From Clostridia bacterium (GTDB taxonomy: Bacteria; Bacillota; Clostridia; Oscillospirales; Acutalibacteraceae): DNA of 12,457 nt. Where the stretch lies: assembly GCA_017414725.1 (NCBI GenBank), contig JAFQKZ010000016.1:1-12457 (forward strand), read 5' to 3'. Below are positions 6,242 to 12,457 of this stretch, piece by piece. A program made the translations under genes and the position numbers. Position 1 is the stretch's first letter, and the number at the start of each line of letters is the position of its first letter. Below the pieces are notes generated by a model. It was not told the origin of the DNA and ran no database searches. It worked only from the letters and a program-made list of their open reading frames with translations.

Positions 6242-7068
6242 TATATTTGTTACTCGAAAAAATTTTCCCGTTTTCATGGGTCGAATTCAATTTCATGAAA
6301 AACGCTTTTGTTGCGATTTTGTTAATAACGCCCCTGTTTGGACTCATCGGAACCATGATAGTTAACAATAAAATGTCGTTTTTTTCCGATGCTTTAGGGC
6401 ATTGTGCACTAACAGGTATTGCACTGGGCGTGATTTTGAACATAACAAATTACTCTGTTTCTATGATTTTGTTTTCGGTTTTGTTCGCGTTGGGAATCTC
6501 CGGAATCATGCAGTCCGAAGTCTCTTCTTCTGATACTATTATAAGCGTTTTTTCTTCTACTGGAATTGCTTTAGGAATATTCTTGCTGTCTTTTTCGGGC
6601 AATTTCGCCAAATATTCAGCATATTTAGTGGGAGATATATTATCTATCAACAAAAACGAAATTTTTATATTATTGTTAATTTTAATTTTAGTAATTATTA
6701 CATGGATATTATTATTTAATAAATTATTGTTATCTGGATTAAATTCTGATATGGCTCACAGCAAAAGAATTAATGTTAAGTTTTATAAAAATTTATTTTC
6801 AGTTTTGATTGCAATTATAGTAACTGTATGTTTGAAATGGGTCGGAATATTAATGATAAATTCGTTGTTAATCTTGCCCGCGGCGTCATCAAGAAATATC
6901 GCTAAAAACATGCGTAGTTATCACGTTTTGTCTGTGATATTTTCGGTGTTCTCAGGCATATTCGGACTGATACTCTCGTATTATATTGGAGCGTCCGCCG
7001 GCTCAACAATAGTACTTGTGTCAAGTGTGATATTTTTTGTTACGTTTTTTGTGAACAAAATAAAATAG
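6232..7068 (+). CDS. znuB: Metal ABC transporter permease (ABC-3 family)
   Basis: Membrane-spanning subunit of the importer. 278 residues with about eight or nine hydrophobic segments. The ABC-3/ZnuB signatures are visible: FFSDALGHCALTGIALG (about 50-66), the segment ending AYLVGDILS, and KWVGILMINSLLILPAA in the second half, where the conserved Gly-Ile-Leu...Pro-Ala region sits. The ATG at 6232 lies inside the end of the ATPase gene. The GGGATGAAAC just upstream offers only a weak Shine-Dalgarno, consistent with coupling to the upstream gene. Together with the two preceding genes it gives a complete zinc/manganese uptake system. Confidence 0.94.
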   Translation: MDLIYLLLEKIFPFSWVEFNFMKNAFVAILLITPLFGLIGTMIVNNKMSFFSDALGHCALTGIALGVILNITNYSVSMILFSVLFALGISGIMQSEVSSSDTIISVFSSTGIALGIFLLSFSGNFAKYSAYLVGDILSINKNEIFILLLILILVIITWILLFNKLLLSGLNSDMAHSKRINVKFYKNLFSVLIAIIVTVCLKWVGILMINSLLILPAASSRNIAKNMRSYHVLSVIFSVFSGIFGLILSYYIGASAGSTIVLVSSVIFFVTFFVNKIK

Positions 7069-7089
7069 ATATTCATAGGAGTAAAAATC

Positions 7090-8229
7090 TTGTTAAAATT
7101 AATTTATAATTCTATGAAATATTGCGATAAAATTTTATGGTTAATTATAATTCTAATATCAAGCTACAGTTTGTTACTCGTGAAAAGCATATCGCGTGAG
7201 AATTTCAATTATTTTACCGTACAATTTTTGTCAGTAATCATAGGCATAATCTGTGCGTGTTTCTTGCAAGTCTTGAATTATAAAATTCTTGTGAAATTTT
7301 CAAAAATTATAGGAATTATATCTGTATTTTTAATATTATGCACGTTATTTTTAGGCATAAAAATCGAAGGTTCCATGGGTGTCAACGCACGAGCATGGCT
7401 CGCTTTACCCGGCGGAATCACGTTTCAACCGTCAGAACTGGTAAAAATTGGATTTATCATAACTTTTTCTTATCATGTGTCAGAAATCAAAAAAAATAAT
7501 AACTTCAAAAAATTTAAAGATATAATTTATTTAGGAATACACGCTTTGGTGCCTGTGGTATTAACACACTTACAAGGCGATGACGGAGCTGCGATTATAT
7601 TTTTCTGCATAGCGTTTGTAATATTATTTTTGTCGGGTTTGCCTATAAAATATTTTGTTTTATTAGTATTTTTGTTGATTTTAGTAGTGCCGGTATTATG
7701 GAAATTTGTGCTTGTAGATTATCAGAAAAAGAGAATTTTGACGCAATTTAACCCTGAATCAGACCCGTTAAACATGGGATACCAACAAATACAAAGCATG
7801 TTGTCAATAGGCTCCGGCGGGGTTTTGGGCCAGGGAATATTTAACGGTCCAAGAGTCGCAAACAACGTAGTTCCGGTGCAAGAAAGCGATTTTATATTCT
7901 CTGTTGCCGGCGAAGAGCTTGGATTTATCGGCTGTTCGTTAATTTTATTATTAATTTTAATATTGATTTTCAGAATAAGTTATATATCTAAAATTTCTCA
8001 AGAAATCACGGGGACATATATATGCTTCGGGTTCATAGGACTAATTTCCATGCAATCGATTTTTAATCTCGGAATGTGTCTGAGTTTATTGCCTGTAATG
8101 GGCGTAACGTTGCCGTTCATGAGCGTCGGTGGCTCGTCAGTAGTGTGTCTGTTTCTGGGCATAGGAATTATCCAAAATATTTATATTAATAGAAATCAAA
8201 TACAAAAAAACACGAATTTTGAATTATAA
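7090..8229 (+). CDS. rodA: SEDS-family peptidoglycan glycosyltransferase (RodA/FtsW/SpoVE type)
   Basis: Polytopic enzyme (about ten membrane segments, 379 residues) that polymerises lipid II with a partner class B penicillin-binding protein. Family signatures: NARAWLALPGG...FQPSELVK (about 99-119), the loop LTQFNPESDPLNMGYQ (217-231), SIGSGGVLGQG (239-249), and ESDFIFSVAGEELG (265-278). The latter contains an Asp (D267) equivalent to the essential RodA aspartate, and W103 matches the conserved Trp. The gene starts with TTG at 7090, 9 nt after AGGAG. It is 21 nt downstream of the permease. RodA is favoured over FtsW by the NMGYQQIQSMLSIGSGG pattern, but the SEDS subtype (elongation, division or cortex synthesis) cannot be fixed from the sequence alone. 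Position next to sigK would also suit a sporulation role. Confidence 0.88.
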   Translation: MLKLIYNSMKYCDKILWLIIILISSYSLLLVKSISRENFNYFTVQFLSVIIGIICACFLQVLNYKILVKFSKIIGIISVFLILCTLFLGIKIEGSMGVNARAWLALPGGITFQPSELVKIGFIITFSYHVSEIKKNNNFKKFKDIIYLGIHALVPVVLTHLQGDDGAAIIFFCIAFVILFLSGLPIKYFVLLVFLLILVVPVLWKFVLVDYQKKRILTQFNPESDPLNMGYQQIQSMLSIGSGGVLGQGIFNGPRVANNVVPVQESDFIFSVAGEELGFIGCSLILLLILILIFRISYISKISQEITGTYICFGFIGLISMQSIFNLGMCLSLLPVMGVTLPFMSVGGSSVVCLFLGIGIIQNIYINRNQIQKNTNFEL

Positions 8230-8245
8230 TTAATAACTTAAACAT

Positions 8246-8274
8246 GCACATTTAATATCTCAAAATCATATTAT
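8246..8274 (+). promoter_or_regulatory. Possible sigma-E promoter for sigK
   Basis: GCACATTT (8246-8253) and CATATTAT (8267-8274) are separated by 13 nt and resemble the -35 and -10 elements of mother-cell sigma-E promoters. The -10 ends 34 nt before the sigK ATG. In well-studied spore formers sigK is transcribed by sigma-E, which fits, but in A+T-rich DNA such a match is weak evidence by itself. Confidence 0.35.
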
Positions 8275-8308
8275 TTTATTAGTAATTTTGTACAGGTGAT
8301 TATTAAAT

Positions 8309-8704
8309 ATGCTGTTTTTTTCAGAGATTTTTAATATATTAACAAATTTGCCGTTTATGATTTTGCACGTGATTTCGCAAAATTCTTTTCCAAAACCGTT
8401 GTCAAAAAAAGAAGAAGAAAAATATATAAAATTATTTTTTGAAGAGAAAAATATCGAAGCTAAAAATAAATTGATTAATCATAATTTGAGATTAGTGGCG
8501 CACATAGCCAAAAAATATCACCTGAAAAACGTCGACCAAGACGATTTGATTTCTATCGGAACTATAGGGCTTATAAAATCCATAAATACTTTCAAGCCCG
8601 AAAAAAGTGTGAGAATTTCGAGCTATGCTGCTAGGTGTATCGAAAATTCTATTCTCACACTATGGATACAAAAAATATTAATTGGCATCCAGTACTTAAA
8701 ATGA
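8309..8704 (+). CDS. sigK: Sporulation sigma factor SigK, N-terminal half, interrupted as by a skin element
   Basis: Late mother-cell sigma factor. Residues 1-113 match sigma-K: a hydrophobic leader of about 20 residues (MLFFSEIFNILTNLPFMILH) resembling the pro-sigma-K propeptide, then SFPKPLSKKEEEKY, the region 2 core NLRLVAHIAKKY (59-70), DDLISIGTIGLIKSINTF (78-95), and SYAARCIEN (105-113). After Asn113 (codon 8645-8647) similarity ends; the family normally continues with Glu-Ile-Leu and a further ~120 residues including regions 3 and 4. Here 18 unrelated residues lead to TGA at 8702-8704. This is the same codon neighbourhood where skin interrupts sigK in B. subtilis and C. difficile, so programmed excision in the mother cell is likely, not simple decay. 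The reading frame up to the break is intact. ATG follows AGGTGAT. Confidence 0.88.
   Translation: MLFFSEIFNILTNLPFMILHVISQNSFPKPLSKKEEEKYIKLFFEEKNIEAKNKLINHNLRLVAHIAKKYHLKNVDQDDLISIGTIGLIKSINTFKPEKSVRISSYAARCIENSILTLWIQKILIGIQYLK
8609..8658 (+). repeat. Candidate left recombination site (skin attL) with imperfect inverted repeat
   Basis: GTGAGAATTTCGA (8609-8621) is repeated in inverse, with a few extra bases, as TCGAAAATTCTATTCTCAC (8640-8658). The arms straddle the point at 8645-8650 where sigma-K homology ends. Such symmetry is expected of a large serine recombinase site. The crossover core would lie around GAAAAT/TCT. Without the right end of the element the exact core cannot be defined. 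Confidence 0.45.
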
Positions 8705-9237
8705 GTGACAATTTGGTTATTCTCGCAAATGATAAGGGGATAACCACTACTTACTCGTTATTTTATAAGCATACCTTTCGCTTTTTTAGTCTTAAAAGTT
8801 TAGCTGAATCAGAACTTTTTAATATAAAATATCAAAATTCTACGAATATTAAAACAGTTGCTGAAAAGCTTAGATATTATAGACATAAAAACGCTTTACT
8901 TCAAAAAGATATTGCAAAATATCTTGGCATAAACGAGTGTACATACATAAACTACGAATCCGGCAAACGTGATTATTATCCGATAGACGCTTTGAAAAAA
9001 ATCTCAGAACTTTACAAAGTTGATATTTTAGAATTTATGGACGATTATAATTTATTTGTTTACCAAGAGCAAGGGAAGAAGCTAAAGGCATTAATCAAAG
9101 ATCTCAAATTAACAAAAAAATATGTAGCCGAAAAGTTAAGTGTTCACCCAAAAACAGTGTCGGCTTGGGAAAACGAGAAAGGTATAATGCCAAAAGAAAT
9201 ATATACAAAACTCTTTAAAGATAAGATTTTTGGATAG
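8701..9237 (+). CDS. Double helix-turn-helix XRE-type regulator
   Basis: DNA-binding regulator of 178 residues. A 50-residue N-terminal region without recognised motif is followed by a complete XRE/Cro-C1 HTH (about 53-116: TVAEKLRYYRHKNALLQKDIAKYLGI ... YESGKRDYYP) and a second, shorter HTH (about 125-172: KALIKDLKLTKKYVAEKLSVHPKTVSAWENEK). Proteins with this tandem layout, including the YINYE.G.RDYYPID stretch, are common on clostridial mobile elements, where they are assumed to control element genes. The start at ATG 8701 is chosen because it overlaps the sigK-fragment stop (ATGA). In-frame alternatives are ATG 8662 and GTG 8635. No good Shine-Dalgarno precedes any of them, so translation may depend on coupling to sigK. 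The gene would then be read from the sigK promoter before excision. Its TAG is one base from the ancestral end of the convergent small ORF. Confidence 0.85.
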   Translation: MSDNLVILANDKGITTTYSLFYKHTFRFFSLKSLAESELFNIKYQNSTNIKTVAEKLRYYRHKNALLQKDIAKYLGINECTYINYESGKRDYYPIDALKKISELYKVDILEFMDDYNLFVYQEQGKKLKALIKDLKLTKKYVAEKLSVHPKTVSAWENEKGIMPKEIYTKLFKDKIFG

Positions 9238-9245
9238 ATTACATT

Positions 9246-9254
9246 TTATTGTAG
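9246..9254. repeat. Target site duplication, left copy (IS256-family insertion)
   Basis: TTATTGTAG directly precedes the left inverted repeat and recurs exactly at 10704-10712. Nine bases fits the 8-9 bp duplications of the IS256 family. Confidence 0.85.
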
Positions 9255-9279
9255 AGCCTGCGAAAAAGTTTCTGTAAAA
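9255..9279 (+). repeat. Left terminal inverted repeat of the IS256-family element
   Basis: Pairs with 10678-10703 allowing a one-base gap and a few mismatches; the shared inner part is TCTGTAAAA. Confidence 0.8.
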
Positions 9280-9331
9280 AGAGAAAAAAGAACTTCTGTG
9301 GTAAAATAAAGACATAGGAGGAAATAAAATC

Positions 9332-10573
9332 ATGGCAAGAGAGAAAAAAGCGGTACACAAAGTACAAATGACAGAAGGGAAAAGACGGATTATCCGTCAA
9401 CTGTTGGAAGAATACGAGATTGAAAGTGCGAAAGACATCCACGAAGCCCTGAAAGATCTGTTAGGGGGAACGATTAAAGAGATGATGGAAGCGGAGATGG
9501 ATAACCATCTTGGTTACGGGAAATCAGAACGATCTGATAGTGATGATTACCGAAACGGCTACAAAACAAAAAGAGTCAACAGTAGTTGTGGAAGTATGGA
9601 AATACAGGTGCCACAGGACAGGAAATCTACTTTTAATCCACAGATAGTGAAAAAACATCAAAAAGATATATCAGATATTGATCAAAAGATAATTTCTATG
9701 TATGCAAAAGGAATGACTACAAGACAAATATCAGAAACTATTAAAGATATCTATGGATTTGAAACTTCTGAGGGATTCATTTCTGATGTTACTGACAAGA
9801 TTCTTCCATTGATAGAAGACTGGCAGAATCGACCATTGGATACAGTTTATCCCATACTTTACATAGATGCGATACATTATTCTGTTCGTGATAATGGGAT
9901 TATTCGCAAATTGGCAGCGTACGTAATTCTCGGTATCAATACAGAAGGTAAAAAAGAAGTTTTGTCCATTAATATCGGAGACAATGAAAGCGCAAAATAC
10001 TGGCTTTCTGTGCTGAATGAACTTAAAAATCGCGGTGTAAAAGATATCCTGATTATCTGTGCAGATGGCCTTTCCGGCATTAAAGAAGCGATTACGACTG
10101 CTTTCCCTAAAACAGAGTACCAAAGATGTATTGTACATCAAGTTAGAAACACCTTGAAATATGTCCCGGATAAAGACAAAAAAGCATTTGCAGCTGACTT
10201 AAAGACCATTTATCACGCGTCAAACGAAGAACAAGCACGAGTCGCTCTGGACCGTGTAAATGACAAATGGACACCAAAGTATCCAAATGCCATGAAACGC
10301 TGGTATGATAACTGGGATATTATTTCTCCGATATTTAAATTTTCAGCCGGTGTCAGAAAAGTTATTTATACCACAAACGCTATCGAATCTTTGAATTCAA
10401 CTTATCGTAAGTTGAATCGGCAGAGAAGCGTGTTCCCCAGTGATACCGCTCTTTTAAAAGCTTTGTATTTAGCCACTTTCGAGGCCACTAAAAAATGGAC
10501 TGTCACCATCCGAAACTGGGCTCAAGTCTTTGGCGAGCTGAGTATCATGTACGATGGCAGACTACCGGGTTAG
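9332..10573 (+). CDS. IS256-family (mutator-like) transposase
   Basis: Cut/copy-out transposase of 413 residues, normal for the family and apparently intact. The N-terminal part (1-110) is the DNA-binding region, including the family stretch EAEMDNHLGYGKSER...YRNGYKTK. The DDE catalytic triad can be placed at D179 (LYIDAIH), D245 (ICADGLSG) and E352 (TTNAIESLNSTYRK). The C...H pair of the family (C266 and H269 in CIVHQVRN) lies between the second Asp and the Glu. ATG 9332 follows a strong AGGAGG (9316-9321). The leader from the left end of the IS is 77 nt. Closest relatives would be Bacillota IS256 members. Confidence 0.95.
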   Translation: MAREKKAVHKVQMTEGKRRIIRQLLEEYEIESAKDIHEALKDLLGGTIKEMMEAEMDNHLGYGKSERSDSDDYRNGYKTKRVNSSCGSMEIQVPQDRKSTFNPQIVKKHQKDISDIDQKIISMYAKGMTTRQISETIKDIYGFETSEGFISDVTDKILPLIEDWQNRPLDTVYPILYIDAIHYSVRDNGIIRKLAAYVILGINTEGKKEVLSINIGDNESAKYWLSVLNELKNRGVKDILIICADGLSGIKEAITTAFPKTEYQRCIVHQVRNTLKYVPDKDKKAFAADLKTIYHASNEEQARVALDRVNDKWTPKYPNAMKRWYDNWDIISPIFKFSAGVRKVIYTTNAIESLNSTYRKLNRQRSVFPSDTALLKALYLATFEATKKWTVTIRNWAQVFGELSIMYDGRLPG

Positions 10574-11167: not shown

Positions 11168-11566
11168 CTACTTATTAGACAAAAATATCTTTATTTTTTT
11201 TAATAATTTGGAAATTCTTTTACTAACATTTTGTTGGGCTATACTATAAATTTCTGCTATTTCACTTTGAGTTTTTTCTTCATAAAACACGTAATGAAGC
11301 AATATTTTTTCGTCTGTATTCAGCTTACAAGTGGCATTGCGTAAATCTTCATTCTCTATAAATTCTATCCATTCTATCGAATCCGTTTCAAACAACTGCT
11401 TGTCCACATCGGATATATCCGGTTTTTTATCGTACACAGCTTCTTCAATGGAAATTTCGTGTTTATATATCTTCGATTGTTTAATGTTATCTTTCAAATC
11501 CATGTTCTTTACCACTGTATAAAAGTATGCTCCTTCATTTCTTATGTTATCAGGGCGATTTCCCAT
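11168..11566 (-). CDS. Sigma-70-like (region 4) protein of mobile-element type
   Basis: 132 residues. The C-terminal third (about 82-127) is a region 4-type HTH: LNTDEKILLHYVFYEEKTQSEIAEIYSI then QQNVSKRISKLLKKIK. The N-terminal part (RPDNIRNEGAYFYTVV...) resembles small sigma-like proteins found on clostridial conjugative elements and prophages, where they are annotated as sigma-70 family factors; targets are unknown. It lacks a recognisable region 2 with the -10-reading helices, so it may act as an accessory factor and not a full sigma. ATG 11566 is chosen because GGAGG (minus, 11579-11575) lies 8 nt upstream. A longer TTG-started frame from 11590 would place the Shine-Dalgarno inside the coding sequence. 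It is not the missing half of sigma-K: orientation is opposite and the sequence differs. Confidence 0.8.
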   Translation of the reverse strand: MGNRPDNIRNEGAYFYTVVKNMDLKDNIKQSKIYKHEISIEEAVYDKKPDISDVDKQLFETDSIEWIEFIENEDLRNATCKLNTDEKILLHYVFYEEKTQSEIAEIYSIAQQNVSKRISKLLKKIKIFLSNK

Positions 11567-11577
11567 AAATATTTCCT

Positions 11578-11609
11578 CCGAATTATTCAAAATTTTTCTA
11601 ATAATTCGG
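11578..11609 (-). promoter_or_regulatory. Hairpin overlapping the ribosome binding site of the sigma-like gene
   Basis: CCGAATTATT (minus, 11609-11600) and AATAATTCGG (11587-11578) are perfect 10-nt complements with a 12-nt loop. The last two G residues of the 3' arm are the first bases of the GGAGG site, so folding would partly hide it. Could be a translational control element or, as DNA, an operator palindrome. Confidence 0.45.
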
Positions 11610-12107: not shown

Positions 12108-12457
12108 GGTTCAAAAAAATAGGTTATGTACTAGAAGGTTTGAGAAACAAAAAGGAGAGAGATAAGATAGGAAAAGAGGGTGATAAGTGATGGTGATGGC
12201 CAAAATAAAATGCATACATTGCGAAAGCGAAGAAGTAGTGAAAAACGGAAAGAGAGCAACGGGAATACAAAGCTTAAAATGCAAGAACTGTGGGAGATGT
12301 TTTCAAGAAAGCTACTTAAATAATGGAACAAAACCGGAAACTAAAAGAATGATAATAAGTATGTCAGTAAATGGAAGCGGGATAAGAGATATATCTCGGG
12401 TCTTAAAAATAAGCAAAGACACAGTGATGAAAACTTTAAAAAAACGGAAAAGAAGCT
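12108..12457 (+). mobile_element. IS1-family insertion sequence, left part only
   Basis: Inferred from the insA-like gene at 12190. The left end probably lies near GGTT at 12108 or GGTTATG at 12122, since IS1-family ends usually begin with GG, but the right inverted repeat and the target duplication are outside the window, so the boundary is a guess. Confidence 0.55.
12190..12457 (+). CDS. IS1-family InsA-like protein, 3'-truncated by the window edge
   Basis: 89 codons visible and still open at the end. A CxxC...CxxC zinc finger (IKCIHCESEEVVKNGKR...LKCKNCGRCF) is followed by the InsA-type HTH (KRMIISMSVNGSGIRDISRVL...TVMKTLKK), which matches the layout of E. coli IS1 InsA: zinc finger, then HTH. 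In IS1, InsA binds the ends and represses, and frameshifting onto insB makes the transposase; some IS1 relatives instead carry one long frame, which cannot be told here. ATG 12190 is 9 nt after GAGGG; an ATG two codons later (12196) is also possible. Confidence 0.85.
   Translation, partial: MVMAKIKCIHCESEEVVKNGKRATGIQSLKCKNCGRCFQESYLNNGTKPETKRMIISMSVNGSGIRDISRVLKISKDTVMKTLKKRKRS

Follow-up and report, generated by a model that had tools for sequence, protein, structure and literature searches.

A sigK Reading Frame Broken Within One Codon

The locus analyzed here raises the question of why a sigK reading frame loses its identity within a single codon, and whether this break reflects decay of the gene or a skin-like element that is removed by programmed rearrangement, as had originally been predicted. 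The window, i.e., the whole stretch of DNA under analysis (12,457 bp), is the entire contig C62 of a 150-contig draft assembly totalling 864,431 bases (91.8% complete), hereafter called G000; nothing therefore lies to the right of the window in this assembly.

The ORF at 8309–8704 encodes 131 amino acids, 113 of which are of the SigK type and are followed by a short unrelated tail. SigK profiles covered residues 3–117 (NF004471, E = 3.3e-41; TIGR02846, E = 1.5e-39, profile positions 5–115 of 227), and the SigE profiles matched this ORF more weakly (7.4e-32 and 3.9e-30). The translation and the limits of the profile matches bore out the original prediction of a clean similarity to SigK that is lost abruptly, with no frameshift. 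The N-terminal leader encoded at 8309–8390, ahead of NSFPKPLS, resembles a pro-sequence. The features of the locus are collected in Table 1.

Table 1. Features of the interrupted sigK locus (window coordinates unless a contig is named).
Feature	Position	Strand	Remarks
sigK 5' half, codons 1–113	8309..8647	+	ORF and SigK profiles
Double helix-turn-helix (HTH) ORF, XRE-type	8635..9237	+	possible starts GTG 8635 (inside sigK) and ATG 8662; frame continuous with that of the recombinase over the predicted attP
attL	8636..8670	+	sigK half-site, AA core 8645–8646, element half-site 8648–8669 inverted to its partner at the C136 end
attR	C136, about 6940–6990		predicted recombination partner of attL
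Left part of the element, to the contig end	8646..12457	+	right end on C136, about 6964–9436, outside the window
IS256-family transposase, intact-looking	9332..10573	+	behind the HTH gene; profile match
Sigma-70 region 4-like protein, mobile-element type	11168..11590	-	profile match
Start of an IS1-like element	12187..12457	+	truncated where the contig stops; copies resembling it on C15, C94 and C74

The Second Half of sigK and an Adjoining Recombinase

A SigK profile search of G000 located the C-terminal half of the gene on the minus strand of another contig (C136:6618–6971; profile positions 109–226, E = 2.3e-34), and no intact sigK was found by this search in the 91.8%-complete assembly. 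Directly upstream of the 3' half, on the same strand and overlapping its start, lies the gene of a large serine recombinase (LSR) of 583 aa (C136:6907–8658). The LSR carries the Resolvase (PF00239), Recombinase (PF07508) and zinc-ribbon (PF13408) domains and looks intact and full length; its motif YSRKS, the serine of which we take to be catalytic, was invariant in the 22 aligned LSRs (22/22). A sigma-K region 3–4 half starting with Glu-Ile-Leu and a nearby large serine recombinase had both been anticipated, and both were found, side by side, on C136 and not in the window. None of the outcomes that had been named as speaking against the element, namely the lack of a second half, the lack of a recombinase or an intact sigK elsewhere, was encountered in the search of G000.

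When codons 1–113 were joined to codon 114 onward, an open frame for a 229-aa protein was obtained. The joined protein reached 274.7 bits for the SigK subfamily NF004471, above the cut-off of 252, compared with 141 for the N-terminal half alone; with the stricter TIGR02846 equivalog model it scored 258.8 against a cut-off of 298.65. Since G000 contains a complementary C-terminal half and the joined protein scores as SigK, the break in sigK is more than a product of chance.

The two contigs are unlinked in the G000 assembly, and the orientation of both halves on one molecule was seen in relatives only. Repeats at the end of C62 led to other IS copies in G000 and not to C136, and the end of C136 matched itself alone in the same genome. 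The left-flank genes were not found beside whole sigK in the genus loci, where just weak matches to ABC-ATPase paralogues appeared, and the right-flank genes were located about 6 kb from sigK, differently arranged, in 3 of 8 loci. Synteny could not prove that C62 adjoins C136, because neither flank sits beside a whole sigK in the genus loci examined. Two more LSRs are encoded in G000, on C103 and C87. A full-length SigE-like match was not found in this genome, perhaps owing to the incompleteness of the assembly.

Predicted Attachment Sites and Crossover

At the left junction the sequence is TGTATCGAAAAT/TCTATTCTCACACTATGG, and at the right one GAGCCACAATGTGAGGATACCAAAC/GAGATTTTAATG; the att half-sites have a short core in common, with repeats in inverted orientation on its two sides. 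In the predicted attP, 15 of 22 pairs match as an inverted repeat at one centre, a value that none of 2000 shuffles reached. This centre falls on the AA of the Asn113 codon (8645–8647), which places the crossover at 8645/8646. The original prediction was thus right about an insertion in sigK and 2–3 bases off in placing the start of the element at about 8648.

The right junctions of the 15 split genomes described below are cut at the same codon (15/15), with the sequence AATGA in most and AACGA in three (G000, G070, and G141). AATGA is also the recombination site reported for the skin element of B. subtilis and for the elements of three B. cereus strains (AH820, J7, and J62; SpoIVCA, Skr) (PMC10745906). 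Judged from sequence, the reported AATGA fits codons Asn113–Glu114 of the G000 sigK and would correspond to them.

Recurrence of the Split Gene in Acutalibacteraceae

The family was searched in 150 genomes, G000 included, and the counts that follow rest on the matches listed. Among these matches, 17 C-terminal halves of SigK had open frames shorter than 200 codons; two of them (G106 and G102) were dropped as split genes, since their matches extend past the split point. At least 15 of the 150 genomes, with G000 among them, have sigK cut at the same codon, and an LSR or an LSR fragment adjoins the C-terminal half in each of the 15. In six genomes a single contig carries both halves, equally oriented, and the sigK 3' half is preceded by the LSR or its remnant. 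The sizes of these elements were 33,989 (G046), 12,051 (G055), 22,163 (G056), 10,148 (G116), 13,997 (G149) and 7,215 bases (G070); the LSR of G116 is damaged. The 5' half was not found for G023, G042 and G141 among the 15 split genomes. The joined sigK frame is open in all 12 elements with both halves, and the 3' half of G056 stops early.

Within the genus, sigK is whole in 7 of the 10 other genomes. In a further one, G005, the gene is whole across the crossover until the contig ends. No SigK was seen in the remaining two (G007 and G009), whose sole match, 48% identical, was read as SigE.

An HTH Reading Frame Across the Predicted attP

The LSR frame of G000 crosses the predicted attP in frame and continues into the element's left-end double-HTH ORF. 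The XRE-type regulator had been regarded as cargo; it does lie inside the element, but the notion of mere cargo had to be given up, this being a conserved left-end gene in frame with the LSR. A frame that spans attP, runs on into an HTH and is cut by integration was found in 10 of the 12 elements with both ends. It stays open past attP for 192–214 codons in nine elements; in G063, where only an LSR fragment is present, it reaches the contig end after more than 203 codons. Neither of the other two frames exceeds 58 open codons in these ten elements. The two exceptions are G165, open for 24 codons to the contig end, and G116 with its damaged LSR, open for 8 codons and with no HTH frame. The nine other HTH parts are homologous to that of G000 (29–60% identity, E ≤ 2.4e-16), and the linker ahead of the HTH domain varies in length and is always in frame (nine distinct elements, G149 left out).

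Once the element is integrated, the AATGA of sigK provides a TGA that ends the LSR at the junction in 9 of 11 scorable elements; the LSR of G000 runs 18 codons further and that of G070, 22. On the other side, the HTH ORF abuts the sigK 5' half without a gap. Its possible starts lie inside sigK in 6 of the 12 elements (offset -13); in three others they are at +11 or +14, and in the last three between +29 and +83. Since the ORF directly follows the 5' half on the same strand, the HTH could be read from the sigK promoter. Judged by position only, it is a candidate for a sporulation-timed directionality factor. Its closest profiles are those of phage transcription regulators, so it may instead be a regulator and not an excision factor.

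Fusions of Recombinase and HTH in Protein and Viral Databases

A first search for natural fusions yielded a single find among 598 scored candidates: P0016, an LSR-HTH protein of 763 aa on a 6,557-bp contig, the LSR part of which is 75% identical to the G000 LSR. When the HTH part of the fusion predicted for G056 was used as the query, 21 proteins were obtained and 17 of them were LSR-HTH fusions, 16 with full LSR domains and one partial (P0134). The LSR part ends in the crossover motif ED/DD-S-E/K/V in 16 of the 17, the exception being P0136, which ends in VDCK. As all of these are metagenome proteins, single fusion records may be assembly chimeras. P0016 was considered as necessarily an excised circle, and this was rejected, since other LSR-HTH fusions sit on long contigs, of up to 401,826 bp.

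HTH halves 95–99.5% identical to one another follow LSRs of just 36–65% identity, and near-identical ones also follow an FtsX-like permease (P0133) and, in P0127, an upstream part that has no other Pfam match and was read as tyrosine-recombinase-like. Conversely, LSRs 95–98% identical carry HTH halves only 67–73% identical. The change of partner falls at the predicted crossover. Given that such fusions exist and that their partners change at this point, recombination appears to swap what stands upstream of the HTH: a recombinase when the element is free, and sigK when it is integrated. Pieces of the HTH were also seen joined to other proteins in P0139 and P0144; together with P0133 and P0127, this range of partners hints at insertion into other genes or at a partner-swapping system.

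When 120 listed relatives of the LSR, G000's included, were sorted by a simple C-terminal pattern, 88 were seen to end at the crossover codon and 11 to continue with the tail that an AACGA-type sigK would give; 2 are longer than 700 aa and 19 show other endings. Five proteins (P0067, P0083, P0084, P0087, and P0115) run beyond the crossover into non-HTH tails. In viral contigs, two attP-like DNA patterns gave no matches (0), and neither the LSR alone nor one HTH retrieved a viral relative as a query. An alignment of LSRs used as the query retrieved 111 viral relatives, of which 80 were kept, and L160, L161 and L163 among them end in EDSK or ENSK. P0016 was matched by 1,228 phage records, none covering 80% of it. 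A distant LSR on a viral contig, L227 (37% identity), has a 667-codon frame with an HTH-like tail and is possibly another recombinase-HTH fusion.

Proposed Excision of the Element and Alternative Explanations

The reading that we favor, with a probability of about 0.7, is that G000 carries a sigK-intervening skin-like element, and that its excision by the LSR rejoins sigK, most likely in the mother cell at sporulation. The second half, the recombinase and the lack of an intact sigK in the assembly all support programmed rearrangement over decay, as first proposed. In this process, the C136 LSR would recombine attL with attR and the element would leave as a circle, joining sigK codons 1–113 to codon 114 onward, most probably in the sporulating mother cell. 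While the element is integrated, the HTH would be read from the sigK promoter and so be made when sigK switches on, and its product is perhaps an excision factor. After excision, LSR and HTH would form one fused protein, and this could make re-integration less likely; a new integration would need an LSR without the HTH, and integration by the fused form is outside the reach of this model.

The genus mate G005 bears on this process. One of its contigs, with an LSR 82% identical to that of G000, stops about 1 base before attR and attP would diverge. On a separate contig, sigK is uninterrupted at the crossover and continues for 124 bases past it, to the contig end; the sigK 3' flank was not found on any further contig of G005. 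These contig ends are what an assembly graph holding both integrated and excised states would give, which is only suggestive of excision.

An ordinary integrative island that has sigK as its attachment site, with excision untied to sporulation and only cured cells able to sporulate, is an unlikely but not negligible explanation. It would suit the varied cargo of the relatives (sugar degradation in G046, restriction/methylase in G149), and sigK is evidently not the sole target, since the same HTH family follows other host genes (P0133, FtsX-like; P0127). It accounts poorly, however, for the use of the same codon of one sporulation gene in all 15 split genomes, for two sigK halves that are still open and for an HTH ORF straight behind the 5' half; among published sigK elements, those whose excision has been tested are reported to be timed to sporulation (PMC5025042, PMC6957869). 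Decay, with the element stuck, sigK dead in the lineage and its halves surviving as remnants, is clearly improbable: the IS256 and IS1-like insertions, the lack of a SigK match in G007 and G009 and the damaged LSR of G116 would agree with it, but both halves are open and jointly exceed the cut-off of the SigK subfamily NF004471, the full-length LSR has its three domains, and the att arms are intact. That the halves come from different organisms through a binning or assembly error, as separate contigs of a 150-contig draft might suggest, is hardly credible, given that they are equally close to one relative (69% and 72% to G004), that their G+C is alike (32–33%) and their junction motifs complementary, and that six relatives have the same structure on single contigs.

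On top of the favored reading of a sporulation-timed excision, a reciprocal split-gene switch is put forward tentatively, as a model that we consider rather less probable than its opposite. The crossover that breaks sigK would also break the recombinase-HTH gene; the HTH, produced in the integrated state solely upon sigK transcription, would trigger excision and, once fused, would keep the element out, and the HTH half would be handed among recombinases and host genes. Excision would thereby separate the HTH from the sigK promoter and yield a natural integrase-directionality-factor fusion. Engineered fusions of serine integrases with their recombination directionality factors (RDFs) are described, in the text available, as favoring attL x attR and reducing attP x attB (PMC5737554), so a natural fusion could hold the element out; those fusions are man-made, whereas the LSR-HTH is natural and formed by recombination itself, and its HTH is just a candidate RDF.

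With the attachment site in a recombinase-HTH frame, each recombination event would change the gene driving the HTH. If the HTH is an excision factor, its timing would be inherited from the interrupted gene, and this would explain how unrelated cargo can reside in sigK without loss of sporulation. If the switch is true, mobile elements could quite generally take over the timing of whichever gene they interrupt.

Comparison With Known Systems

The comparisons below follow the published systems as described in the available parts of the papers. In skinCd of Clostridioides difficile (CD1231/CD1234), the LSR gene is immediately upstream of the sigK 3' part, as in G000 (PMC5025042). The region of sigK that is used differs between the elements of B. 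subtilis and C. difficile (PMC6957869), and G000 differs from skinCd in its crossover at an AATGA-type site. It also differs from B. subtilis, where spoIVCA adjoins the 5' half and is oppositely oriented (PMC10745906), whereas the G000 LSR adjoins the 3' half in the same direction. The known excision factors are small (Skr, 64 aa; CD1234, 72 aa), unlike the double-HTH ORF of G000, which lies at the far end and shares the LSR frame over attP. No skr-like gene was identified in the element.

In the phages SPbeta and phi3T, int and rdf are at opposite ends and meet across attP after excision (PMC6957869). The position of the HTH corresponds to that of these rdf genes, but in G000 the LSR and the HTH form one ORF across attP, and an rdf role is that of a candidate. 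In mycobacteriophage BPs, attP reportedly lies within the repressor gene, whereas in G000 it splits the LSR and the HTH of one frame and the partner of the HTH is swapped. BPs has an attachment site that involves a regulatory gene, and its immunity is integration-dependent (PMC4557955). Elements of the sigK/skin type have been reported in Bacillus, Clostridioides, Clostridium and Alicyclobacillus; neither a sigK element of Acutalibacteraceae nor an attP inside a recombinase-HTH frame was found in the available text of the literature searched.

Cargo of the Elements

The IS1-like copies on C15, C94 and C74 are 96–98% similar, and the assembly probably broke at the end of C62 because of these repeats. 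The sigma-region-4-like protein of the window (11168–11590) is similar by eye to that at L044:7412–7810, near the C103 serine recombinase, which suggests a mobile-element module shared between the sigK element and the C103 recombinase region. Two small ORFs are present at the right end of the element, on C136. No phage structural family was matched at 1e-8 among 20 ORFs scanned from five elements, and a replication-protein-like gene was found in the element of G070.

The 34-kb element of G046 (L135 and L136; C11) carries genes for alpha-L-rhamnosidase, an apiosidase-like protein, GH43, GH2 and fucose isomerase. That of G149 (L141; C21, 14 kb) encodes a type III restriction subunit and a DNA methylase.

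The Host

The assignment of the host to Acutalibacteraceae follows the source name of P0004, a relative of the LSR, and the named MAG relatives of the sigK half. Two ATP/ADP translocases (PF03219) are encoded in G000, at C58:1953–3398 and C84:75–1589 (E = 3.8e-137 and 2.7e-116). Matches to this family were obtained in 11 of 11 genus genomes, with just 9.2e-15 in G010, vs 0 of 14 controls. Spo0A is present in all 11 genus genomes, G000 included. A "small genome clade" of Acutalibacteraceae is described, in the part of the paper available, as putative intracellular energy parasites with an ATP/ADP translocase, genomes of 0.86–1.4 Mb and a G+C of 30–39%, and one of the paper's figure legends mentions an endospore (PMC10579323). 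The translocases of G000, its size (864 kb) and its G+C (30–33% in the six contigs measured) fit this clade, to which it would seem to belong by these features. With it, a gut lineage that includes a genome of the "energy parasite" type joins the bacteria whose spore programme appears dependent on DNA excision. G000 pairs translocases that are reportedly the hallmark of putative intracellular energy parasites with both Spo0A and sigK.
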